From a virus: a stretch of DNA of 26,566 bases. The notes under the pieces were generated by a model, which saw only the letters and a program-made list of their open reading frames with translations, searched no databases and had not been told where the DNA came from. The position numbers were made by a program, and so were the translations under genes. How positions within the stretch are numbered: position 1 is the first letter of the stretch; each line of letters begins with the position of its first letter. This document shows positions 1 to 26,566 of this stretch, one piece after another. The DNA lies in the IMG/VR virus record IMGVR_UViG_3300010885_022412, positions 1 to 26,566 of that record. One strand, written 5' to 3'.

Positions 1-448
1 TCAAAAGATGACGAAGCCCGAGACGGACCACTACTTCTACAATCTACAACACAAAAACTTTACAGAAATTAAGTAAAACTAAGAACTATAAAGCAAAAGT
101 GTTCGTCAGGTAATAGTGAAAGGTGACTACATAGTAATGAGCCGTTCATTGCACGATAGGATCGCAAGTCTGATCGTATTCTTACCAAACACCTCTAGTC
201 CCGCAAGGACCAACTGGGAAGGCATTCTCGGAGAGAGTCAAGTAATAAGAGAGTAACTATTATCTCAAGGAGTGATTCACCTAAATAATCGTCACTGAGG
301 TTTACTTCTCAAAAGGAAGTGGATACGAAGGGAAACAATAATCCTTCAAAAGATACCTCACATAAACGTATAATCTCAGCGTTTTTTTAAAAAACTTATC
401 TTATAAGAAGAAATTTGGGGACGATGTGAATCGGTCCCTTTTTTTTTG
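1..448 (+). ncRNA. Structured non-coding RNA, 5' part outside window
   Basis: No credible reading frame exists here although genes are tightly packed elsewhere. Local hairpins are visible on the plus strand: ACGAT (153-157) pairs with ATCGT (173-177) around a GCAA loop; GTCC (198-201) pairs with GGAC (207-210), again with GCAA at the tip; ACTTC and GAAGT pair near 304-320; CTTAT and ATAAG pair near 397-410. The region ends in an intrinsic terminator at 418-448, which fixes the strand. The 5' end lies left of the window. I do not recognise the family. Large ornate phage RNAs such as GOLLD or ROOL are candidates by size and setting only. It has no tRNA T-loop and I recognise no RNase P signature. 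Confidence 0.5.
418..448 (+). terminator. Intrinsic terminator of the left-edge RNA
   Basis: GGGACGAT (418-425), loop GTGA, then ATC and GTCCC (430-438, with one bulged G) followed by ten T. It ends the non-coding transcript and separates it from the gene at 490. Confidence 0.75.
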
Positions 449-1654: not shown

Positions 1655-2054
1655 TGGTGGAGGTGCGGAGACTCGAACTCCGGTCCAGTCTATCCTGTCA
1701 GAGAAGGACTACACGTTTAGGTCAAGGTTTGTCATACCTTCCGAAATATCTAAGTTCTCACACCACTCAGCGACGGTGGTAGTTCTTACGGGGAACCACG
1801 CCCGTTTTGTTTTCTTTTAGAGTGAAAACCAACTCATCAACGACTTCTGTTGCTAGGTTATCTGTCTGACCGACCCCCCGTTTCCGTACTTAAATTAAGC
1901 TACAGTAACTTCAGATTCTCTTACTAATCCAAGAGTTTCCATTTTTGATAAAACGTTGCCGTCTATAAAAGTAAACCAGTTTTTAAGGAGATTAGTTCAG
2001 TCCCCACGTGCCCTTGATCCTCAGCCAATACCTGTCAAATCCAAAAACACCCCC
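1655..2054 (-). ncRNA. ssrA: Transfer-messenger RNA (tmRNA), one-piece
   Basis: A 400-nt minus-strand gene. The 5' end GGGGGTG (2054-2048) pairs with CACCTCC (1665-1659) as a 7-bp acceptor stem with one G-U, followed by discriminator A and an encoded CCA (1657-1655). A tRNA-like T arm is present: CGGAG, loop TTCGAGT, CTCCG. After the stem comes TTTTTGGATTTGACAGG, the conserved tmRNA D-domain start. A TAGAC box precedes the resume codon GGC at 1960. tmRNA with SmpB rescues stalled ribosomes and adds a degradation tag. The gene is flanked by a host-type promoter 20 nt upstream of the mature end (implying RNase P trimming) and its own terminator. The tag is atypical (see 1895-1960). Confidence 0.95.
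1895..1960 (-). other. tmRNA tag reading frame
   Basis: From the resume codon GGC (1960-1958), placed five bases after the start of the TAGAC box as in E. coli TAGTC-GCA, the frame runs 21 codons to TAA (1897-1895). The peptide starts GNVLSKMETL and ends LVRESEVTVA. Usual bacterial tags, including Bacteroidota ones, end in ALAA or similar. This one is longer, charged, and ends in TVA. Confidence 0.75.
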
Positions 2055-7975: not shown

Positions 7976-8338
7976 ATGATTGATTGGAGAGAATTCAATA
8001 GAATGATGGATGAAATGTTTAGTTCCCCATTTAATGATATGGGATGGAATAAAAAATCTTACAAATCACCAGATGGTAGAACATCATATACCTTTATGAG
8101 TAAAGGATTTGATGAAGAACCAAAAATAGATGAGGTTGGGTTTCTAAAACATAAATTAGAAAAGTGTGTCGCGTTACAAAATTTTGAGGAAGCCGTACAA
8201 TTAAGAGATAAGATCAAAAAATTAGAAGAAAACAAAGAAAAGATTTCAGAGTTAAGAACTAAGTTAGATGAATGTGTGAAAAACCAAGACTACGAAAAGG
8301 CGATAGAGTATCGTGATAAAATAAGGGCTCTCAAATAA
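7976..8338 (+). CDS. UVR-motif protein, McsA-like ClpC adaptor candidate
   Basis: This encodes 120 residues. The C-terminal two thirds hold two tandem UVR motifs: LEKCVALQNFEEAVQLRDKI (about residues 59-78) and LDECVKNQDYEKAIEYRDKI (about 98-117). UVR motifs occur in UvrB/UvrC, ClpC and the ClpC activator McsA. The phage ClpC encoded divergently next door carries one too, so a partner role is the simplest inference. The N-terminal 50 residues (MIDWREFNRMMDEMFSSPF and on) are unlike McsA zinc-finger regions and have no CxxC pairs. UvrB/UvrC-type catalytic domains are absent. The gene ends just before a strong terminator. Confidence 0.75.
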   Translation: MIDWREFNRMMDEMFSSPFNDMGWNKKSYKSPDGRTSYTFMSKGFDEEPKIDEVGFLKHKLEKCVALQNFEEAVQLRDKIKKLEENKEKISELRTKLDECVKNQDYEKAIEYRDKIRALK

Positions 8339-12483: not shown

Positions 12484-12491
12484 TATTTATA
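12484..12491 (+). promoter_or_regulatory. Late-type motif TATTTATA
   Basis: TATTTATA ends 4 nt before the terL ATG (12496) in a 54-nt gap. Confidence 0.4.
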
Positions 12492-12495
12492 TTAT

Positions 12496-14271
12496 ATGGC
12501 TTTAACTAAAGAACAGGTAATGATTGAGTATGTGAGATGTCTACAGGACACTCCATACGCACTTCGTACATATCTACAAACTTACGACAACACAGTATCG
12601 CAATACGTACCATTGGAATTATTTCCAGATCAGGTTTCTTTATTAAAAGACTATGAGGAATTTGAGGAGAACATTGCATTAAAATATCGTCAAGCAGGTG
12701 TATCTACGGTAACCGCAGCTTGGATATCAAAAAGGTTGGTATTTGCCAAGAAAAACAAACCCGAAAAAATTCTTATTATTGCCAACAAACTTGATACATC
12801 TCAAGAGATGGCAAATAAGATTAGAGCATTTGTGTCTCAATGGCCATCTTGGGTTGGGGCCGGATTTGCACCAGAAAAAAACGCACAAAAACACTACAAA
12901 CTAACAAATGGATCTGAGGTTAAAGCGGTGGCAACATCAAAAGATGCCTTACGTGGATTTACTCCTACGATATTAGTATTTGATGAGGCGGCCTTTATTG
13001 AGGCCGATAGTGATTTTTGGGCGGCTTGTATGGCATCCTTATCCACAGGGGGTAAGGTAATTGTGGTTTCTACACCAAATGGATACGACCCAATTTATTA
13101 TGAGATATACGACCAAGCATTAAAAGGGATGAATCAGTTCAAAATCACTGAGATGTTTTGGTATAGAGATCCAAGATACACAAAAGACCTTTATTTAGTT
13201 AAAACGGAAGATATTGTTCATTACCTACTAAATAGGGAAGAATACGATGAATCAAAAAATATTTCATTAGGTAGTATTGATCCTTACGAACGAGATTATG
13301 ATGAAATGTCCCACTTTTTCAAACAAGGGTACAAACCATGCTCAAGTTGGTATGAAAAAATGGTTAAGAAACTTAAATACGATAAACGTAAAATTAACCA
13401 AGAGTTAAATTGTGAATTCTTAGGTTCAGGTGATAACGTATTTGATAACAAACAACTTGAGGACATTAAGAATAACTCATTGTTAGAACCAACAACAAAA
13501 CTAATGGGTAATTCCGTTTGGATATGGAAGGAACCAGTTGAAGGTCACAAGTATATTATGGGTGTTGACGTTTCTCGTGGTGATAGTGAAGATTTTTCAT
13601 CAATACAAATTATTGATTTTGACGCAAGAGAACAGGTCTTTGAATACGTTGGAAAAATACCTCCTGATACATTAGCGGAAATTGCTTATAAGTGGGGGAT
13701 TATGTATAGCGCATTTGTTGTTGTGGATATCACCGGTGGTATGGGTATTACTACGGTAAGAAAAATGCAGGAACTTGGATATAGAAGTTTGTATATTGAT
13801 GGAGTTGATTCTATGAATATATGGGCAGTTAATAAAAGTTCTGTTGATAAAATACCTGGTATTAACTTTAACAATAAAAGGGTTCAGATTATCGCAGCAT
13901 TTGAGGAAGGAGTTAGACATAAATTTCAAATTAGAAGTGTTCGTTTATATAATGAAATGAACACATTCATATATTTAAATGGTAGACCTGACCACCAAAA
14001 AGGACAACACGATGACCTTATTATGGGCATATCAATGGCGTTATATGTGGGTGAATCATCATTCTCCAAGTTAGAGAAAGTAACCGAACATACAAAATCA
14101 ATGATTGATTCTTGGGCGGTTGTAAATAACGATACGGTGGCTAAGGAAGCACACTTTAATCCGGTAATTCCAAATCAAAACTTTTTGAATGAAAGAGCGG
14201 GTTTAAATAGAGGGGCAACACGTAAAGAATACGAACAATATGGTTGGTTATTTAACGGTATGAGAAGATAA
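12496..14271 (+). CDS. terL: Terminase large subunit (T4 gp17-like)
   Basis: This encodes 591 residues, close to T4 gp17 (610). The ATPase domain has a deviant Walker A YRQAGVST (64-71), Walker [10 protein letters not shown] (159-167) and motif STPNG (192-196). The nuclease domain has [13 protein letters not shown] (356-368), VVVDITGG (408-414) and a late HDDLIMG (about 507), the three acidic positions of the RNase H-like fold. TerL drives ATP-dependent DNA packaging into the prohead and cuts the concatemer. In T4 the Walker A is RQLGKTT; here the usual Lys position is Val, as in some other phage terminases with RQxGxST. The order terL ... portal follows T4 17 ... 20. Confidence 0.95.
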
Positions 14272-14276
14272 TAGAG

Positions 14277-15704
14277 ATGGGATTAGATTTTAGAAAAAGA
14301 TCGGGTAGAATAGCGAATGGATCAAGATTGATTGTTCCTGGTCAAATTACGACCGGAGATAAAGTTTTTGAATTAACATTCTCTAATAAAAAGAATCCTT
14401 ATGATGTTCCAGCTCCTAGCGCTGTTGCAATCCTTGTAACCCCATTAAAAACACCAAGACCATCCCAAACACCAACACCAACACCAACGGTAACACCAAC
14501 ACCAACGGTAACACCAACTAATACGCCAACACCAACAATTACACCTACTAATACGATAACACCAACGGTTACTCCAACTAACACAATAACACCGACGGTA
14601 ACGCCAACAAATACAATAACACCAACTGTAACAAATACGCCAACTAAAACGGTTACACCAACGGTTACTCCAACCAAAACGGTTACGCCAACACCAACAA
14701 TTACACCTACTAATACGATAACACCAACGGTTACTCCAACTAATACGAAAACACCAACACCTACACCTACAAATACACCAACTAATACGGTTACCCAAAC
14801 ACCAACTAAAACGGTAACACCGACACCAACGGTTACTCCGACTAATACAATAACACCTACACCGACTAAAACGGTTACACCAACGGTTACCCAAACACCA
14901 ACTAATACTGTTACACCAACGCCAACTAAAACGGTAACACCAACGGTTACTCCGACTAATACAATAACACCAACACCAACATCTTCACCACTACCACCTA
15001 CAATAAATTATTTCCAAGATTGTTGTACTAATTTAGTGTATAAGATTGGTGATGTACCAGCATTAGTTCCGATTACTATTGGTAATTATTATTATGTCGT
15101 AAGTGATGTATTTACAGGTTGTAGTCAATCGGTATCGGCAACAACCTCTGTTTCACAAGGGGTTTATATAGGTTCAACAGGATACACTAATTGTATTGAT
15201 TGTTTTGCGGCTGAATCAATTATTTGCCCTTCACCAACACCAACGGTTACGCCAACAGTTACTCCGACACCAACTATTACAGATACTCCAACGCCTACAC
15301 CAACACCAACTAATACTGATACACCTACACCTACACCAACTAATACTGAAACTCCGACGCCTACTCCAACTAACACTGATACGCCTACTCCAACACCTAC
15401 TAATACTATAACACCGACACCTACAAATACTGAAACACCAACACCTACTCCGACGCCAACTAATACGACTACACCAACACCAACAAATACTCCAACTCCA
15501 ACTCCAACGCCAACAAATACACCAACTCCAAGTCCAACTGCGGTAGTTGAGGACTATTTATTGTTGGAGGATGATTATTTATTCCTATTGGAGGATGGTG
15601 ATTATTTAATAATAACACCTGAAGTAACAGTAGAAGAGTTTTTATTATTACAGAATTCAGGATTATTCACACTCCAAAACTCAAATTATCTAAAAAAACA
15701 ATAA
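14277..15704 (+). CDS. Thr/Pro-repeat adhesin-like structural protein
   Basis: This encodes 475 residues, 5 nt after terL. A 55-residue N-terminal part ([15 protein letters not shown] and on), perhaps the attachment domain, is followed by a long (T-P)n region with TVTPTNT and TITPTNT units (about 58-238). Next come a small Cys-rich domain (about 240-318, DCCTNLV, GCSQS, NCIDC), a second Thr/Pro region (about 318-421), and a C-terminal hydrophobic/acidic repeat ([20 protein letters not shown]). Thr/Pro runs make stiff extended stalks and could be O-glycosylated. Expected location is the virion surface or tail. It occupies the place of T4 genes 18/19. The repeats use varied codons, so the amino-acid pattern rather than the DNA is conserved. 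Confidence 0.75.
14455..14990 (+). repeat. Thr/Pro-coding low-complexity repeat, first block
   Basis: An irregular ACACCAAC-type tandem repeat encodes [11 protein letters not shown] units. A second block of the same kind lies at about 15230-15540. Confidence 0.85.
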
Positions 15705-16574: not shown

Positions 16575-19112
16575 ATGGCAAATCAAAGATTAACCCAATT
16601 ATCATCAACTAACACAGCATCAAATGGTGATGTATTATACATTGTAACGAATTATGTGTCGGGTGATCCTGTATTAACCGGTACGTCCAAACAGATATAT
16701 TTTTCGGCATTAACCCAAAGTATAACAGGTGGTACTTCAGGAACATCTGGAACAAACGGAACATCCGGAACAAATGGATTAAGTGGTGCAACAGGAACTA
16801 GTGGTACAAATGGAACATCAGGAACAGATGGAACTAATGGATCTGATGGAACTAGTGGATCAAGTGGTGATAAATATAGAACACCAGCAACAGGATCTTA
16901 TACTTTAGGTGTTACGAGTGGAGGGACTTTAACAATAAATACCGGTTTGGGGTATTCAGTGGCACAATCAATATTAATTGTTAAAGATATTAACAATAAC
17001 CAAACATCTTCAGTCGTTTCATACGATGGTTTAGATGGGACTTTGGTATTCTCAGGAGCGTCTGCGGTTGTAGGTAGTGGTACTTATACAGGATGGACTG
17101 TAAACTTAGCAGGTGCTGCCGGTGGTGATGGTTCTTCGGGCACAAATGGTACTTCAGGAACAAATGGGTTAAGTGGTGCAACAGGAACTTCAGGAACAAA
17201 TGGTACTTCAGGAACAAATGGGTTAAGTGGTGAAACAGGAACTTCAGGAACAAATGGTACTAGTGGTACTTCACCAAGCGGATCAACTGGTAATCTTGGT
17301 GATTATTTGCCATTAAGTGGTGGTACCGTATCAGGAAATACTACTTTCACAAGTGGATTAACAACATCTAATACAACAGTAAATGGAAACTTAACGGTTA
17401 CAGGTAATACAAATCTAAATGCTTTAACCGCAACAACTAGTACCATAAATGGAAACTTAACCGTAACAGGAAATACAAATATTAATGCTTTAACCGCAAC
17501 AACTAGTACCATAAATGGAAACTTAACAGTGACTGGAACCACAAATCTAAATGCTTTAACCGCAACAACTAGTACTATAAACGGAAATTTAACCGTGACT
17601 GGAACCACAAATCTAAATGCTTTAACCGCAACTACAAGTACCATAAATGGAAACTTAACCGTAACAGGAAATACAAGTGTTAGATCTTTAACATCTACCG
17701 CAAGTACAGTAAATGGAAACTTAACCGTTACAGGTAATACAAATCTAAATGCTTTAACTGCAACAACAAGTACGGTAAATGGTAACTTAACTGTTACAGG
17801 AACCACAAATCTTGGTACTTTAACATCTACTGCGAGTACAGTAAATGGAAACTTAACAGTGACTGGAACTACAAATCTAAATGCTTTAACCGCAACAACT
17901 AGTACCATAAATGGAAATTTAACTGTAACAGGAACTACAAATCTAAATGCTTTAACCGCAACTACAAGTACCATAAATGGAAACTTAACGGTTACAGGAA
18001 CTACAAGTATCAATGCCTTAACTGCAACAACTAGTACTATAAATGGAAATTTAACCGTAACAGGAACCACAAATGTTGGATCTTTAACTGCGACAACTAG
18101 TACTATAAACGGAAACTTAACCGTGACTGGAACTACAAATCTAAATTCTTTAACTGCAACAACAAGTACCATAAATGGAAACTTAACGGTTACAGGTAAT
18201 ACAAATCTAAATGCTTTAACCGCAACAACTAGTACAGTAAACGGAAATTTAACAGTGACTGGAACCACGAGTCTTGGTACTCTAACTTCTACCGCAAGTA
18301 CCATAAATGGAAACTTAACCGTAACAGGAAATACAAGCATTAATGCCTTAACTGCAACAACAAGTACGGTAAATGGTAACTTAACTGTTACAGGTAATAC
18401 AAATCTAAATGCTTTAACTGCAACGACAAGTACCATAAATGGAAACTTAACCGTAACAGGAACAACAAGTGTTAGATCTTTAACTTCTACGGCAAGTACC
18501 ATAAATGGAAACTTAACAGTGACTGGAACTACAAGTGTTGGATCTTTAACTGCAACAACAGTTAACATAACTTCAGTTGGTTCAGTATCATCTGCAACAA
18601 CCATAACTAATTTGGGAATTACAAGTGGAGGGTTAGTCGTTACAAGTTCTACAATATCAACACCTGTTTATCTATCAGTAAATAAAAATGTTGCTCAATC
18701 AATACCATACGCAACAGAAACAACCCTAACCAATTGGGAGACAACTTCTTTAGTAAACAACACACCAAGTGCGTGGAACGCAACAACGGGTACATTTACT
18801 TGTCCTGTTGCTGGTGTTTATGATATATCCTTAACTTTGATGTTGTCTAATGTATCACCTGATGCTATTTTTAACGAGTTTGCCCCTATTATCAGTTTTA
18901 ATGGAGTTCCTTATATTAGTGATTGGTGGACTACATTTATAGGAAATGTTGTTAATACCCCGTCAGTTACTGTAAGATATGTATTACAACTAGCAGTAGG
19001 AGATGTTATTAGACCTCGTGTTTATCAAAATATTAGAACTAGCACGGCATACAATATTGTAACAGGTCGTAATAGTTTCATCATTAGTCAATTACCAAGT
19101 AAAATAATATAA
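16575..19112 (+). CDS. Long tail fibre: collagen-like, 18 x 22-aa repeats, C1q-like tip
   Basis: This encodes 845 residues. N-terminal anchor domain shared with the preceding gene (1-52). Collagen-like Gly-X-Y tracts GTSGTNGTSGTNGLSG (about 53-98) and again at about 184-240, separated by a beta-rich domain. Then 18 tandem 22-residue units of pattern (I/V)NGNLTVTG(T/N)T-(N/S)-x-x-x-LTATTST (about 269-664). The last 150 residues look like a C1q/TNF-type jelly roll: GTFTCPVAGVYDISLTLML, LQLAVGDVIRPRVYQN and a final SFIISQL strand. All these elements are trimer-forming, so an extended fibre with a receptor-binding tip is expected. It follows the shorter fibre gene with no gap to speak of. Confidence 0.8.
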   Translation: MANQRLTQLSSTNTASNGDVLYIVTNYVSGDPVLTGTSKQIYFSALTQSITGGTSGTSGTNGTSGTNGLSGATGTSGTNGTSGTDGTNGSDGTSGSSGDKYRTPATGSYTLGVTSGGTLTINTGLGYSVAQSILIVKDINNNQTSSVVSYDGLDGTLVFSGASAVVGSGTYTGWTVNLAGAAGGDGSSGTNGTSGTNGLSGATGTSGTNGTSGTNGLSGETGTSGTNGTSGTSPSGSTGNLGDYLPLSGGTVSGNTTFTSGLTTSNTTVNGNLTVTGNTNLNALTATTSTINGNLTVTGNTNINALTATTSTINGNLTVTGTTNLNALTATTSTINGNLTVTGTTNLNALTATTSTINGNLTVTGNTSVRSLTSTASTVNGNLTVTGNTNLNALTATTSTVNGNLTVTGTTNLGTLTSTASTVNGNLTVTGTTNLNALTATTSTINGNLTVTGTTNLNALTATTSTINGNLTVTGTTSINALTATTSTINGNLTVTGTTNVGSLTATTSTINGNLTVTGTTNLNSLTATTSTINGNLTVTGNTNLNALTATTSTVNGNLTVTGTTSLGTLTSTASTINGNLTVTGNTSINALTATTSTVNGNLTVTGNTNLNALTATTSTINGNLTVTGTTSVRSLTSTASTINGNLTVTGTTSVGSLTATTVNITSVGSVSSATTITNLGITSGGLVVTSSTISTPVYLSVNKNVAQSIPYATETTLTNWETTSLVNNTPSAWNATTGTFTCPVAGVYDISLTLMLSNVSPDAIFNEFAPIISFNGVPYISDWWTTFIGNVVNTPSVTVRYVLQLAVGDVIRPRVYQNIRTSTAYNIVTGRNSFIISQLPSKII
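17379..18566 (+). repeat. 18 tandem 66-bp repeats in the fibre gene
   Basis: In-frame 66-bp units encode INGNLTVTG... with two alternating flavours: NLNALTATTST and (S)VRSL/LGTLTSTAST. The DNA copies are close but not identical. The last unit is degenerate. Confidence 0.9.
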
Positions 19113-19170: not shown

Positions 19171-19178
19171 TATTTATA
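19171..19178 (+). promoter_or_regulatory. Late-type motif TATTTATA
   Basis: TATTTATA lies 20 nt before the portal ATG (19199), in an 86-nt gap after the fibre gene. Confidence 0.5.
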
Positions 19179-19198: not shown

Positions 19199-20998
19199 AT
19201 GGAAAATAACAGGCAAAATCTTACAGTTTGGCAAAGGCTATCCAAAACCTTTGGACCCGATTCTACATTGGGAATGTCACAACCTGACTATAAGTTAGAT
19301 AAGAAAGAATTATTAAAAACAACAGATAAGGCAGAATACGAGAGAGCTAAGTTGCAAAACCAACAATCTCTTTATTTGAGTACTAACTGGGCTAAGGTTG
19401 AGAATAACTTATACACTCAAGCAGTTTATTACGAACCAACAAGATTAGCCGCGTTTTATGATTTTGAATCAATGGAATATACACCTGAGATTTCTGCGGC
19501 TTTAGATATCTATGCTGAAGAATCAACAACACCAAATCAAGATGGTTATGTTCTTCAGGTATATTCAGAATCAAAAAGAATCAAATCAATTCTTGTGGAT
19601 TTATTCATCAATAATTTAGATATCAACACTAATTTACCAATGTGGATTAGAAACATGTGTAAGTACGGTGATAACTTTGTTTATTTAAAATTAGACCCTG
19701 AAAAAGGAGTAACAGGAGCATTACAATTACCTAACATTGAGATTGAAAGGTTGGAAAGAGGTATGGACGCAAGAACATATAATGCAACCATAGATGTTAC
19801 TAAGAAAGCATTAACGTTCACTTGGAAAGCAAGAGACGCTGAGTTTAACACTTGGGAGATTGGTCACTTCAGATTATTGGGTGATGATAGAAAACTTCCT
19901 TATGGTACTTCTATGTTGGAAAAAGCAAGACGTATTTGGAAACAATTAGTTTTGGCTGAAGATGCGATGTTAATCTATCGTACATCAAGAGCACCTGAAA
20001 GACGTGTGTTTAAAGTATTCGTGGGTAACATGGACGATAAAGATGTGGAAGCATATGTACAAAGAGTAGCAAACAAATTCAAAAGAGATCAAGTTGTAGA
20101 TAAAAACTCAGGTAATGTGGATTTAAGATTTAACCAAATGGCGGTAGATCAAGATTACTTTATACCTGTACGTGATCCAGCAGCTGCTAACCCAATTGAC
20201 ACATTACCGGGAGCTCAAAACTTGGCAGAGATTGCCGATATTGAGTATATCCAAAAGAAATTAGTTACCGCATTAAGAATACCTAAGGCTTATTTAGGAT
20301 TTGAGGAAGTTGTTGGTGATGGTAAAAACTTATCATTATTGGATATTCGTTTTGCTCGTACAATCAACAGAATTCAAAAATCGGTTATTGCCGAATTAAA
20401 TAAGATTGCAATCATTCACTTATTCTTAATGGGATTTGAGGATGAATTACAAAACTTCTCATTAGGTCTTACAAATCCATCAAAACAAGCTGACTTGTTA
20501 ATGATTGATGTTTGGAAAGAAAAAGTATTATTATATAAAGATTTGGTCGCAGAGATTCCAAAATCACTTCAAGCAACATCAGCAACTTGGGCTAAGAAAC
20601 ATATCTTTGGATTCTCAGATGAAGAGATTAAGTTGGAATTACAACAAGTTAGAATGGAAAGAGCGGTTTCTGCGGAACTTGATAATACCGCAACTATTAT
20701 TACAAAAACAGGGTTATTTGATAACATAGATAGATTGTATAAAGCGCCGGCATCAGGATCAACAGCACCGGCACCCGCAGGAGATGCGGGAGGAGCCGGA
20801 GATATGGGAGCACCAGCGCCTGAAGCGGGAGGACCACCTCCACCACCTGAGGCACCACCAACAGTACCTGAATCTACTCTTAGTGATAAATTAAACATTC
20901 TTAATGAGGGAAAAGAAGACGAATACTTAAGTTTTGATAAGATGAACAACTCTTTGGGTGATATTGAAAACGAATTATTTAAATTATTACAAGACTAA
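19199..20998 (+). CDS. Portal protein (T4 gp20-like)
   Basis: This encodes 599 residues; T4 gp20 has 524. Typical T4-family segments include the N-terminal YYEPTRLAAFYDFESMEYTP (structure around the clip/wing), YGDNFVYLKL, PYGTSMLEKARRIWKQL, SRAPERRVFKVFVGNM, DYFIPVRDP, and RIPKAYLGFEE with FARTINRIQKSVIAEL (crown/stem helices). The dodecamer is the DNA channel at the head vertex and the start point for head assembly. The last 100 residues are an Ala/Gly/Pro-rich linker (APAPAGDAGGAGD, GGPPPPPEAPP) plus a short acidic tail; this extension explains the extra length. The start follows a late-type motif. Confidence 0.95.
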   Translation: MENNRQNLTVWQRLSKTFGPDSTLGMSQPDYKLDKKELLKTTDKAEYERAKLQNQQSLYLSTNWAKVENNLYTQAVYYEPTRLAAFYDFESMEYTPEISAALDIYAEESTTPNQDGYVLQVYSESKRIKSILVDLFINNLDINTNLPMWIRNMCKYGDNFVYLKLDPEKGVTGALQLPNIEIERLERGMDARTYNATIDVTKKALTFTWKARDAEFNTWEIGHFRLLGDDRKLPYGTSMLEKARRIWKQLVLAEDAMLIYRTSRAPERRVFKVFVGNMDDKDVEAYVQRVANKFKRDQVVDKNSGNVDLRFNQMAVDQDYFIPVRDPAAANPIDTLPGAQNLAEIADIEYIQKKLVTALRIPKAYLGFEEVVGDGKNLSLLDIRFARTINRIQKSVIAELNKIAIIHLFLMGFEDELQNFSLGLTNPSKQADLLMIDVWKEKVLLYKDLVAEIPKSLQATSATWAKKHIFGFSDEEIKLELQQVRMERAVSAELDNTATIITKTGLFDNIDRLYKAPASGSTAPAPAGDAGGAGDMGAPAPEAGGPPPPPEAPPTVPESTLSDKLNILNEGKEDEYLSFDKMNNSLGDIENELFKLLQD

Positions 20999-21001
20999 CA
21001 A

Positions 21002-21009
21002 TATTTATA
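21002..21009 (+). promoter_or_regulatory. Late-type motif TATTTATA
   Basis: TATTTATA lies 13 nt before the ATG at 21023, directly after the portal stop. Confidence 0.5.
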
Positions 21010-21022
21010 ATAAAAACTAATT

Positions 21023-21739
21023 ATGAATTTCGGTGAAATAAAATCAAAAATAGAGACGTGTATGTCAGAATCTTATAAGACTAACACCTTAAAAGATAAT
21101 CTTTTTGTATTTGAACAAATTGTCTTAAAAAATAAAAACATATCAAAGGTGTTTTTTCTTTATGACGAACTCTCAAAAAATAAAGGGATATCTGAGTCCG
21201 TTGCAAACGAATATATTACTGAATCTATTTCAGCATACGAAAAAACAATTAAGAAAATTACGCCAAAAGAAATTAAAGAATTAAAAGCATGGGTAGGTCA
21301 TATTACGTGTGAAAACGAATATAAAAATATTGATAATTTATTCTCAAAAGATCTATTGGTTATGGAGGATAAAATTAAAAGTAAAAAACTTATTTCTGAG
21401 ACTCTAAGACAAACAGAAAAAGAATCAAAAGAAATAATAAATGTCCCATTAAAGGCTATGGTTAACGTGGCAAACAAAACCGTTAAAAACTTTCTTTCAA
21501 ATCTAACGGAATCAGAACAAAAAGAATTAAATAAAATTTTATCCACACCAAAAGAAACTTTAGTTGAGGACTACAATAAAATTAAAGATGAGGTTACCAA
21601 AAAATTAGGCAACACAAAATTAACAGAGTCAGATGATGAAACTGTAAACACTATTGATAAAGTCTTAGGTAAATTACAAACAGAATCTTTTAACGAACTT
21701 AATTATTATAAGTTAATTAAATTATCTGAATCTCTTTAA
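21023..21739 (+). CDS. Unknown head-module protein (gp67 position)
   Basis: This encodes 238 residues, largely helical and charged (MNFGEIKSKIETCMSESYK and on). It contains repeated TES/SES motifs (ISESVANEYITESIS, KLTESDD, LSESL). No family is recognised. In T4 the genes 67 and 68, both prohead core proteins, lie between portal and protease. This gene and 22001 occupy those two places, so a prohead core role is a reasonable positional inference. It is about three times longer than T4 gp67. Its stop overlaps the stop of the convergent bS21 gene. Confidence 0.7.
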   Translation: MNFGEIKSKIETCMSESYKTNTLKDNLFVFEQIVLKNKNISKVFFLYDELSKNKGISESVANEYITESISAYEKTIKKITPKEIKELKAWVGHITCENEYKNIDNLFSKDLLVMEDKIKSKKLISETLRQTEKESKEIINVPLKAMVNVANKTVKNFLSNLTESEQKELNKILSTPKETLVEDYNKIKDEVTKKLGNTKLTESDDETVNTIDKVLGKLQTESFNELNYYKLIKLSESL

Positions 21740-21921
21740 TCTTCAGATCTCAGTTTTTGGATATAAGAGGCTTTTTGAATCTCGTCTCTTTTCTTAACTG
21801 ACTTTTTAGTAAATTCTTTTCTTTCAAACAATTTACTATTTTGTTTCGTCTTTATCACTTTTCCTTTAAGTTCTTTTAAGGCTTTTTCAATATTACCCTT
21901 TTTTACTTCTACAAATAACAT
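21736..21921 (-). CDS. rpsU: Phage ribosomal protein bS21
   Basis: This encodes 61 residues starting at ATG 21921 (MLFVEVKKGN). The open frame continues upstream to 21957, but that part overlaps the promoter motif. bS21 pattern: short N-terminal strand LFVEVKKG, helix IEKALKELKGKV, then the basic FERKEFTKKSVKKRDEIQKASYIQKL. The last block resembles Bacteroidota bS21 (..K.SV..R.QIQKAAY.Q.L), where the C-terminal part helps to hide the 16S anti-Shine-Dalgarno on the 30S platform. It would replace or compete with host bS21. It is a lone minus-strand gene within the head module, with TATTTATA 18 nt before its start, so it is probably made late. Confidence 0.85.
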   Translation of the reverse strand: MLFVEVKKGNIEKALKELKGKVIKTKQNSKLFERKEFTKKSVKKRDEIQKASYIQKLRSED

Positions 21922-21939
21922 ATTTTTTTGGTTTGTTGA

Positions 21940-21947
21940 TATAAATA
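21940..21947 (-). promoter_or_regulatory. Late-type motif TATTTATA before bS21
   Basis: On the minus strand TATTTATA lies 18 nt before the bS21 ATG. On the plus strand the same bases read TATAAATA, the T4 late consensus, 53 nt before the gene at 22001. Confidence 0.5.
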
Positions 21948-22000
21948 TAATAATCATCTACCTTTAAGTAAAAATAAACCTCAGAGTATGAAAAATTTTT

Positions 22001-22468
22001 ATGAAAAAAGGGAAAACAACCAAATTAACTGGTTACCGAACGTTTAAATCGCACTATGGAACCATTGATGCACAAAACCTTAAATCAATTTACGTTAACC
22101 TACAAACTTGGGTAGAACCCAAAGATGAAGTAGAAAATTGGAACAGAGTAGTTCTAAACATGTCAAGATCCGTTAAACATTCGGTTTTTGAAAACATAAA
22201 CAAAGAAGTTTTTGACAACAAATTTATTGTTGATTTAGACCTTCGTACAAGTGGATTACATCTAAAGAAAAAATCATTTATGAACTTAGAGGTTAATCTT
22301 TTCTTACACGAACCTATGGACTTCAAATCCCCAAAATTAAAGAAACACGTAAAATCTTTAATTAAATCTTTATATGGGGATGTAATAAATAAAAACAAAT
22401 ATTTTAAATTTTATTTAACCAAAACAGGAAATTCAAAACCTATTAAAAAAGAAACTGAAACTATTTAG
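22001..22468 (+). CDS. Unknown head-module protein (gp68 position)
   Basis: This encodes 155 residues, basic (MKKGKTTKLTGYRTFKSHYG and on), with a middle of alternating hydrophobic residues (KFIVDLDLRTSGLHLKKKSFMNLEVNLF, given here as two parts FIVDLDLRTSGL and SFMNLEVNLF) and a Lys-rich C-terminus. No domain is recognised. T4 gp68 is of similar size (141) and lies directly before the protease gene, but I see no sequence evidence of homology. ATG 22001 is preceded by AATTTTT and no Shine-Dalgarno; an ATG at 21988 is out of frame. Confidence 0.65.
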   Translation: MKKGKTTKLTGYRTFKSHYGTIDAQNLKSIYVNLQTWVEPKDEVENWNRVVLNMSRSVKHSVFENINKEVFDNKFIVDLDLRTSGLHLKKKSFMNLEVNLFLHEPMDFKSPKLKKHVKSLIKSLYGDVINKNKYFKFYLTKTGNSKPIKKETETI

Positions 22469-22476
22469 TATTTATA
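22469..22476 (+). promoter_or_regulatory. Late-type motif TATTTATA
   Basis: TATTTATA lies 13 nt before the protease ATG (22490); it overlaps the end of the preceding gene region. Confidence 0.5.
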
Positions 22477-22489
22477 TAGAAAATATTAA

Positions 22490-23218
22490 ATGGAAAATTT
22501 CAAAATATTAGGACCGAGAGATTCGGGTAAAGGTATTCTTATTGAATATGATGCTGGGTATATAAATCCAAGAGAGGGTAAAAACTTAGAAATGATCAAT
22601 GAAAATAAGGATATGTTGGATCACTCAAAACCATTTGAGTTTTATGCGGTTCTTCAGAAATATAATACACCAAATAGAAATGGTCGTGTATACCCTGAAA
22701 GGATTTTAAAAAGAGAAGCGGATAACTACAAAAAGATGATTGATAAAGGCACTTCTCTTTCTGAGTTAAACCACCCTGAGTCGTCTTTAATTGACTTAGA
22801 CAGAGCTTCACACATTATCACAGAGATATGGTGGGAGGGACCCGTATTATTGGGTAAGTTAAAGTTATTAACAAGTCCAGGTTTCCACGAAAGAGGGATT
22901 GTTTCTACCAAAGGTGATTTGGCAGCAAACTACCTACGTCAGGGAGTTACTTTGGGTATATCTTCTCGTGGTGTTGGTTCACTTAAAAAAGTGGGAGAAC
23001 AAAACGAAGTACAGGATGATTTTGAACTAATCTGTTTTGACCTTGTATCTTCACCATCTACACCGGGAGCATACTTGTTCCAAAATAAAGATGACAGAAT
23101 GAAGTACGAAGAAAGCTTAGAAGAGGATAGAAAAATCGCAGTAGAAAGAAATGTTGGGGAATCAGGAACTAAATCACTTGACTTAATGAAAAGATTATCC
23201 GATTATTTAGGAAAATAA
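22490..23218 (+). CDS. Prohead maturation protease (T4 gp21-like)
   Basis: This encodes 242 residues; T4 gp21 has 212. Signature blocks are NRNGRVYPERIL (62-73), SELNHPES with the conserved His (about 95), the RASHIITEIWWEG strand, and LGISSRGVGSL with the conserved Ser (about 158-159). These identify the herpesvirus-assemblin-like fold family of T4 gp21. The enzyme sits in the prohead core, cuts scaffold and capsid proteins after (I/L)-x-E, and then degrades itself. A matching site FLINE|A is present in the major capsid protein of this window. It lies just upstream of scaffold and capsid genes as in T4. Confidence 0.93.
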   Translation: MENFKILGPRDSGKGILIEYDAGYINPREGKNLEMINENKDMLDHSKPFEFYAVLQKYNTPNRNGRVYPERILKREADNYKKMIDKGTSLSELNHPESSLIDLDRASHIITEIWWEGPVLLGKLKLLTSPGFHERGIVSTKGDLAANYLRQGVTLGISSRGVGSLKKVGEQNEVQDDFELICFDLVSSPSTPGAYLFQNKDDRMKYEESLEEDRKIAVERNVGESGTKSLDLMKRLSDYLGK

Positions 23219-25174: not shown

Positions 25175-26566
25175 ATGGGAGCATTATTAGAATCAGGTCT
25201 TGTAGGTAACATCGGGTTAAAACACCTTAAAGTTATCAAAGAAGACACAATTAACAAATGGGACAAATTAGGGTTCCTTGATGGTCTTAAAGGACATCTA
25301 AAAGAAAACGTAGCTCAATTATATGAGAACCAAGCTTCTTTCTTAATTAACGAAGCAACAGGTGAAGGCTCTAACGGAGCATTTGAAACAGTTGTTTTCC
25401 CTATCGTAAGAAGAGTATTCTCTAAATTGTTGGCTAACGACATCGTTTCTGTACAAGCAATGAACTTACCTATCGGTAAATTGTTCTACTTTGTACCACG
25501 TATTCAAGGATACCAAAACCAATTACAAGGGCCAGATGCAACTGGAGGTATTCACTACCCACCAATTGGATCTAACAACGAAGCTGCAGGTCAAACTCCA
25601 GGTTCAGGTTACCCACCAGTAGGGCCTTACTCTTACCAAAAAGATTTGTATGATTTATTCTACGAAGGAAATGAGGCAGGTTTAGATCCTCCAGGATTGT
25701 TTGATTACTCTAAAGGTAAATGGACAGCAGTTACAGCTAACACTACAGTTCAAGCTTGGGTTGGTGGTTATTTAGTTGACGCTAACATCGGAGCAGGACA
25801 AATCATTCCAGCTGGTAACACAAGAAAAGTTATCGTTAAAATGTGTGGTTTCGCAACTGCAGGTGAAGGTAAATTGATTGGACCTGACGGAAATGAAATG
25901 GATAGTGAGGCATTCTTGTCTGACTTGAGAATATACGGTTTCACAGGTTTATCAGCATCTACAACACCATGTGACGTTATCAAAAACAGTGCAGGACAAT
26001 ATGTTCCTTTATTGTTTAGATGTGTTACTCAAATCTACGGTAAAGGTTTAGTTAAATATGGTGATACAGCACAAACTGTATTCTCTAACTCAGGATCAAA
26101 TCCTCCATCTCCAACAAACGCAGGTAACGGTGGTTCTTACTACGATATCTGTGACTCAGCAGGTTGTATTTGGTTAGAAGTTGATTTATCTTGTCCAGTA
26201 TGTGCTGATTGTAACTCAACATCTTTAGATGGTTACACAGGTACTACATTGTTCTCAGGTGGATCTGCAACTTCATTTACTGCATGGTTCAGAAGATATG
26301 CTAACTTAGAGTGGGAAGATGAAATCGGTGAGGTTTCTTTTGACCTTGAGTCAGTAACAGTTTCTGTAACAGAAAGAAAATTAAGAGCACAATGGTCTCC
26401 TGAGTTAGCTCAAGACGTTGCTGCATTCCATAACATTGACGCTGAAGCTGAGTTAACTGCATTGTTATCTGAGCAAGTAGCAGCTGAGATTGACCGTGAG
26501 ATCTTACGTGACTTGAGAAAAGGAGCGGCTTGGAACTTACGTTGGGATTACAACGGATGGAGAAGA
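25175..26566 (+). CDS. Major capsid protein (T4 gp23-like), 3' truncated by window
   Basis: An open frame of 464 codons with no stop; the C-terminus lies outside the window. N-terminal part MGALLESGLVGNIGLKHLK..., then ASFLINEATGEG at about residues 54-65. The I-N-E|A bond at residue 60 matches the T4 gp23 cleavage SFLTE|A at residue 65. Following blocks VVFPIVRRVFSKLLANDIVSVQAMNLPIGKLF (cited as VVFPIVRRVF and VQAMNLPIGKLF) match the T4 (V/I)RRA.P.L..DICGVQPM...GQ.F region of the HK97-like fold. Near the edge, LSEQVAAEIDREILRDL is the late alpha-helical segment. The leader is A-rich (ACCAAAAAAATG) with no Shine-Dalgarno. No late-type motif is seen in the 35-nt gap, so it may be read from the scaffold promoter. 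Confidence 0.95.
   Translation, partial: MGALLESGLVGNIGLKHLKVIKEDTINKWDKLGFLDGLKGHLKENVAQLYENQASFLINEATGEGSNGAFETVVFPIVRRVFSKLLANDIVSVQAMNLPIGKLFYFVPRIQGYQNQLQGPDATGGIHYPPIGSNNEAAGQTPGSGYPPVGPYSYQKDLYDLFYEGNEAGLDPPGLFDYSKGKWTAVTANTTVQAWVGGYLVDANIGAGQIIPAGNTRKVIVKMCGFATAGEGKLIGPDGNEMDSEAFLSDLRIYGFTGLSASTTPCDVIKNSAGQYVPLLFRCVTQIYGKGLVKYGDTAQTVFSNSGSNPPSPTNAGNGGSYYDICDSAGCIWLEVDLSCPVCADCNSTSLDGYTGTTLFSGGSATSFTAWFRRYANLEWEDEIGEVSFDLESVTVSVTERKLRAQWSPELAQDVAAFHNIDAEAELTALLSEQVAAEIDREILRDLRKGAAWNLRWDYNGWRR

Follow-up and report, generated by a model that had tools for sequence, protein, structure and literature searches.

What does a virus gain from a gene for bS21, which viruses carry more often than any other ribosomal protein (PMC9723584, PMC9976891)? 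We considered this question for a bS21 gene in a 26,566-nucleotide stretch of viral DNA (IMG/VR record IMGVR_UViG_3300010885_022412; the window, hereafter). Flavobacteria provide a clean test, given that their bS21 controls itself via nearly the only strong Shine-Dalgarno (SD) sequence in the genome. Specifically, bS21-lacking ribosomes of Flavobacterium johnsoniae translate rpsU via an SD of exceptional strength, and bS21 thereby limits its own synthesis (McNutt 2023, PMC9976891). Such ribosomes favor rpsU and initiate slowly or poorly on SD-less messages (PMC9976891).

Much of what the locus displays is already published, and the window is another member of a known group. Chen 2022 (PMC9723584) described 47 Bacteroidetes phage genomes with a reverse-strand bS21 in the head module, an aromatic residue at the position of Tyr54, and a diverged N-terminal half, and found bS21 to be coexpressed with structural genes in metatranscriptomes. 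The first-pass annotation of this DNA was right that phage bS21 genes had been reported before; the combination in which it placed the interest is largely anticipated there, as host group, reverse strand, Tyr54, and late expression are all in that study. A search of its text found no mention of promoters, autoregulation, or the lack of an SD. New here are a viral bS21 gene without the SD control signal, the reading of an upstream element, TATTTATA, and syntenic loci without bS21.

The bS21 gene and its place in the head module

The 61-residue translation of the reading frame (MLFVEVKKGNIEKALKELKGKVIKTKQNSKLFERKEFTKKSVKKRDEIQKASYIQKLRSED) matches Pfam PF01165 over residues 4-53 (E 5.7e-8, 32.8 bits against a cut-off of 27) and scores below the stricter cut-off of NCBIfam TIGR00030 (23.6 versus 28.95). 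Its best relative in the PDB is bS21 of F. johnsoniae (7jil_z, E 3.4e-8), and a second bS21 chain, 9i5v_9, is a further solved relative. With residue contacts taken from McNutt 2023 and Chen 2022, Y53 in the phage sequence falls at F. johnsoniae Tyr54; among 40 aligned phage bS21 proteins, this column holds Y in 37 and H in the other 3. The same 40 proteins diverge strongly at F. johnsoniae positions 18-33, where a near-invariant phage signature (V23, I24, K/R27, Q28, N29) stands against F23, D24, and G27 in the hosts. Hence, the initial description of a 61-residue, Bacteroidota-type bS21 with the C-terminal block IQKASYIQKL is borne out by the reading frame, the block itself, the best solved relative, and the tyrosine at the Tyr54 position.

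The ORF finder had proposed a 73-residue product from an upstream ATG at 21957. We rejected this start, as the relatives all begin at the ATG at 21921 and because the conserved upstream element would otherwise fall within the reading frame. Relatives of the protein are encoded by more than 560 viral stretches, and comparison with the three closest gave dN/dS values of 0.09-0.11; this is a working gene under purifying selection.

The gene had been described as antisense in the head module. It does lie on the strand opposite to the head genes, but it is hardly antisense to any of them, as it fills a slot of its own, converging on gp21023 with an overlap of only 4 nt and diverging from a conserved neighbor, bS21_CN (CN), over a gap of 79 nt (Table 1). 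The order TerL-portal-gp21023-[bS21 reverse]-CN-protease-gp23226-gp23568-MCP was retained in 80 of the 80 closest IMG/VR loci over the part that each covers, in a comparison of TerL and of portal to MCP; fiber genes lie between TerL and portal. TerL identity between the window and the fetched bS21 loci that reach this gene ranged from 51 to 96%. In every one of L001-L080 that covers both genes, CN adjoins bS21. Its AlphaFold2 model (pLDDT 87.7) found one good Foldseek match, an uncharacterized Myoviridae protein (E 5.5e-10); searches of Pfam, PHROGs, and phage records returned no match, and Foldseek against the PDB returned none better than E 0.02. Since annotation and structure searches gave no function, we make no claim that CN is a helper in bS21 exchange. 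At the DNA level, the window matched none of the phage records. Two highly repetitive proteins are encoded in the stretch from terminase to portal: one carries PTPTNT repeats, and the other, which is tail-fiber-like, a long NGNLTVTG array.

Table 1. Positions of the window's features, in order along the DNA
Feature	Coordinates	Strand	Remarks
GOLLD RNA	1..382	+	RF02032, 281 bits; cut at window edge
tmRNA-like RNA	1655..2054	-	RF00023, 93.7 bits
ClpA/ClpB-like AAA+ ATPase, 685 aa	5750..7807	-	below curated ClpA and ClpB cut-offs
Small protein	7976..8338	+	paired repeats resembling UvrB/UvrC motifs (by eye)
Large terminase	12496..14271	+	PF03237 E 1.5e-12; phrog_2; TATTTATA at 12484
Highly repetitive protein	14277..15704	+	
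Highly repetitive protein	16575..19112	+	
T4-type portal (gp20)	19199..20998	+	PF07230 E 7.2e-74; TATTTATA at 19171
Convergent neighbor gp21023, hypothetical	21023..21739	+	overlaps bS21 stop by 4 nt; TATTTATA at 21002
bS21	21736..21921	-	61 aa; ATG start, TAA stop
bS21 leader, SD-less	21922..21946	-	+1.6 or -2.0 kcal/mol, by tail used
TATTTATA element, promoter-like, sense for bS21	21940..21947	-	about 18-26 nt before ATG
Divergent neighbor bS21_CN, 155 aa, conserved, hypothetical	22001..22468	+	AAATAAAC in upstream gap
Prohead protease (gp21)	22490..23218	+	PF03420 E 8.4e-23; TATTTATA at 22469
Major capsid protein	25175..26566, runs off window end	+	phrog_138 E 4.4e-36

Signals upstream of phage and host bS21 genes

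Before bS21, TATTTATA is perfectly conserved among 14 aligned relatives of the clade. The bS21-CN gap of these relatives contains two invariant blocks: the run TTATATTTATATCAA, within which the element lies, on the bS21 side, and GTTTATTTT on the other, which on the opposite strand, ahead of CN, is AAAATAAAC. Near variants, TATTTGTA and TATATATA, precede bS21 in other clades. Across 433 upstream regions from the window and two large relatives (L377-L384 and L385-L399), TATTTATA occurred 68 times in sense versus 9 in antisense orientation, and AAATAAAC 20 versus 2 times; both rank near the top of the upstream 8-mers by sense enrichment. The distance from TATTTATA to the ATG peaks at 11-14 nt and at 3-6 nt; if the element is a promoter, we infer very short leaders and possibly near-leaderless messages.

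The first-pass annotation had seen in this element a late-type motif and had suggested that bS21 may act late in infection. The conserved sense element upstream of the gene stands, but the label "late-type" is only partly right: TATTTATA corresponds to the late box of T4, TATAAATA, in reverse complement. In the sense orientation, TATAAATA is at background, with 3/129 and 3/258 genes versus 37 and 68 for TATTTATA. We thus rejected "T4 late promoter" as a name for the motif, given that the sense strand carries TATTTATA, and likewise rejected lateness deduced from the motif alone, given that most 20-kb pieces of the two large relatives contain it. Because TATTTATA is used genome-wide, rather than specifically by late genes, it is no proof of lateness; what does speak for late action is that the bS21 genes of relatives are cotranscribed with structural genes (PMC9723584).

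Host and phage genes differ sharply in a second upstream signal. We scored SD strength as the pairing energy between the 16S tail and the 25 nt immediately preceding the ATG. Extended SDs were present in 80 of 80 Flavobacteriales rpsU loci (-16.8 to -23.3 kcal/mol), whereas 42 distinct leaders of close phage bS21 genes ranged from -4.9 to +1.8 kcal/mol, with the window at +1.6. The contrast is robust to the tail used: with an alternative tail read in Bacteroidota (host) genomes, GGAACACCTCCTTT, hosts ranged from -17.5 to -22.8, phages from -4.7 to +1.8, and the window was at -2.0. Among 52 more distant viral bS21 leaders, none fell below -13 and two fell below -9, such that 0/94 viral leaders overall reach -13 kcal/mol; the leader in the huge phage LR756501, at -12.1, has a fairly strong SD. 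The extended SD by which Flavobacteriales autoregulate bS21 is, therefore, lacking from the phage genes.

Two considerations bear on how this contrast is read. First, the expectation in the first-pass annotation that phage genes are SD-less proved correct well beyond bS21: in the two large relatives, phage genes generally pair at the level of shuffled sequence (median, -1.3 kcal/mol), and 0/147 and 1/311 genes fall below -13. The absence of an SD before bS21 need not, then, have been selected, as SD-lessness is the default in these phages. Second, in a phylum-wide sample, 35/68 rpsU genes fell below -13. Because the remaining 33/68 do not reach it, the autoregulation argument holds for this phage only if its host is an SD-bearing one.

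Ancestry, loci without bS21, and accompanying RNAs

The phylogeny with host bS21 that had been proposed as a check, built on 64 columns, recovered the phage proteins as one group (SH-aLRT 91) nested, with modest support, among Bacteroidota bS21. They lie near the copies from huge phages and the SD-less second copies of bacterial chromosomes, again with modest support (SH-aLRT 90). A finer placement among hosts was set aside, as the sister group is uncertain in a tree of only 64 columns.

The second chromosomal copies are of interest in their own right. Specifically, rpsU genes without an extended SD were seen in L288, L290, L292, L295, and L296 (Bacteroidota), and also in L264 and L267, several of them directly after a primary-sigma-factor-like gene (by eye), in genomes that also carry a canonical, SD-bearing rpsU. 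They represent a possible alternative bS21 in bacteria themselves.

In two loci, L363 (2206-3490) and L366 (529-1813), the head module and CN are kept with no bS21 between gp21023 and CN, and they provide natural minus controls for the gene. Because these two syntenic loci lack it, bS21 is not essential, and a strict coupling of bS21 to CN, which we had considered, is weakened. The gene was gained or lost within the module; the unrooted CN tree gives no direction. Chen 2022 reported CN to be missing from phages without bS21, based on two outgroup genomes, a statement that L363 and L366 qualify; loci that keep CN without bS21, present here, are not reported in that study.

Further, the tmRNA-like RNA of the window has counterparts in all four large relatives tested (L382, 18523-18941, +; L397, 1939-2329, -; L518; L519), and ARAGORN misses these phage tmRNAs. 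A tag frame of 21 codons is predicted in the five phages, reading GNVLSKMETLGLVRESEVTVA in the window, with near copies in three relatives and a diverged frame, GNTFAKLAALGLTKEEAVVTI, in the fourth (frame picked by eye). Two host genomes encode the usual tag, GENNYALAA; the phage tag lacks the ALAA end, and tagged proteins may therefore escape degradation. The phage tmRNA is possibly more novel than bS21. The GOLLD RNA lies near the tmRNA, within about 1.6 kb, in the window and in two relatives (L382, 19086-19497, -; L397, 1-377, +).

How phage bS21 may act, and how it compares with known systems

We consider it probable that the locus encodes a working bS21 of Flavobacteriia-like ancestry that escapes the host's autoregulation, represses host rpsU, and replaces host bS21. 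In this scheme, a T4-like Bacteroidota phage would express bS21 from its own promoter-like element, and the protein would enter the host 30S subunit and hold the 16S 3' tail in the bS21-bS18-bS6 pocket. Ribosomes would thereby be kept SD-blind, a state expected to initiate well on SD-less messages, including nearly all those of the phage. Unlike rpsU, the phage gene, lacking an extended SD, would be translated by fully assembled ribosomes with no shut-off by its own product; with the build-up of phage bS21 and its masking of the anti-SD (ASD), host rpsU would go down and host bS21 would be replaced. The scheme draws on published work for late coexpression in relatives (PMC9723584), for autoregulation and poor initiation on SD-less messages (PMC9976891), and for ASD masking (in the papers cited), while incorporation in this host, repression of rpsU, and benefit to the phage are steps that we infer.

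This reading bears on the suggestion, made in the first-pass annotation, that a phage copy may change which messages are initiated. Because the ASD-masking residue is kept, phage bS21 should render ribosomes SD-blind just as host bS21 does; and as neither host nor phage messages carry an SD, masking the ASD cannot by itself favor those of the phage. As stated, the suggestion is not supported, the retained Tyr54 implying no selectivity by the ASD route, and rpsU is the one host message for which an effect is predicted. The 80/80 versus 0/94 contrast thus leads to a specific prediction, namely, that expression of phage bS21 lowers host rpsU. The seat of any further selectivity would have to be the diverged 18-33 stretch, which could also impair or alter 30S binding.

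One alternative is that the host stops making bS21, which joins the 30S subunit among its last proteins, late in infection and the phage copy simply keeps ribosomes complete for SD-less messages, with neither replacement nor repression. That bS21-free ribosomes initiate poorly on SD-less messages (PMC9976891), that the gene is dispensable in L363 and L366, and that it is expressed alongside structural genes in relatives (PMC9723584) all fit this account, and it overlaps with the scheme that we favor, from which it differs only in the displacement of host bS21 and the repression of rpsU. By itself, however, it leaves the strongly conserved, phage-specific middle region unexplained, and we regard it as possible, if rather doubtful. 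Somewhat more doubtful still is the published reading, whereby phage bS21 takes the place of the host protein and, through its diverged N-terminal half, biases ribosomes toward phage messages. The phage-specific signature at positions 18-33 is in line with it, as is the location of the divergence near the mRNA path (Chen 2022, PMC9723584), but no phage-specific leader signal was found for such ribosomes to read, SD-less leaders are common to the host as well, and the residue that masks the ASD is unchanged. A nonribosomal role, as a virion protein or an RNA-binding factor made with the head, is very improbable: the gene's position in the head module, coexpression with structural genes, and the virion packaging raised in Chen 2022 (PMC9723584) are countered by the retained Bacteroidia-type C-terminal residues and by the entry of a Pelagibacter phage bS21 into E. 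coli ribosomes (Mizuno 2019, as cited in PMC9723584).

Taking the feedback-free replacement of host bS21 as our preferred reading, we tentatively extend it to a more speculative picture, in which the bS21 genes of Bacteroidota phages would in general have escaped SD-based autoregulation and their product would act as a one-way switch, made without feedback, masking the ASD, turning off rpsU as the chief SD-dependent message of the host, and replacing host bS21 throughout the ribosome pool, with, in this phage lineage, a phage tmRNA bearing a noncanonical tag alongside.

The phages of Chen 2022 (clades a-e) share with the window the same reverse-strand gene, flanked by two hypothetical proteins in the module of TerL, portal, protease, and MCP, as well as the same aromatic residue at position 54, and Bacteroidota hosts were predicted for these relatives. 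The F. johnsoniae bS21 (7JIL) belongs to the same family, with the same C-terminal block and Tyr54, and the window protein is ~51% identical to it, although the middle region has diverged and rpsU has the extended SD that the phage gene lacks, hence the absence of SD-based autoregulation in the latter. Huge phages (LR756501, 735 kb; LR745206; LR756502; LR756504) likewise encode a Bacteroidota-type bS21, 47-56% identical to that of the window, but none of the window's head-module proteins turned up in the 6-kb flanks of these genes. Finally, the second chromosomal rpsU genes resemble the phage gene in lacking an extended SD, yet they are bacterial genes with a middle region unlike the phage signature.
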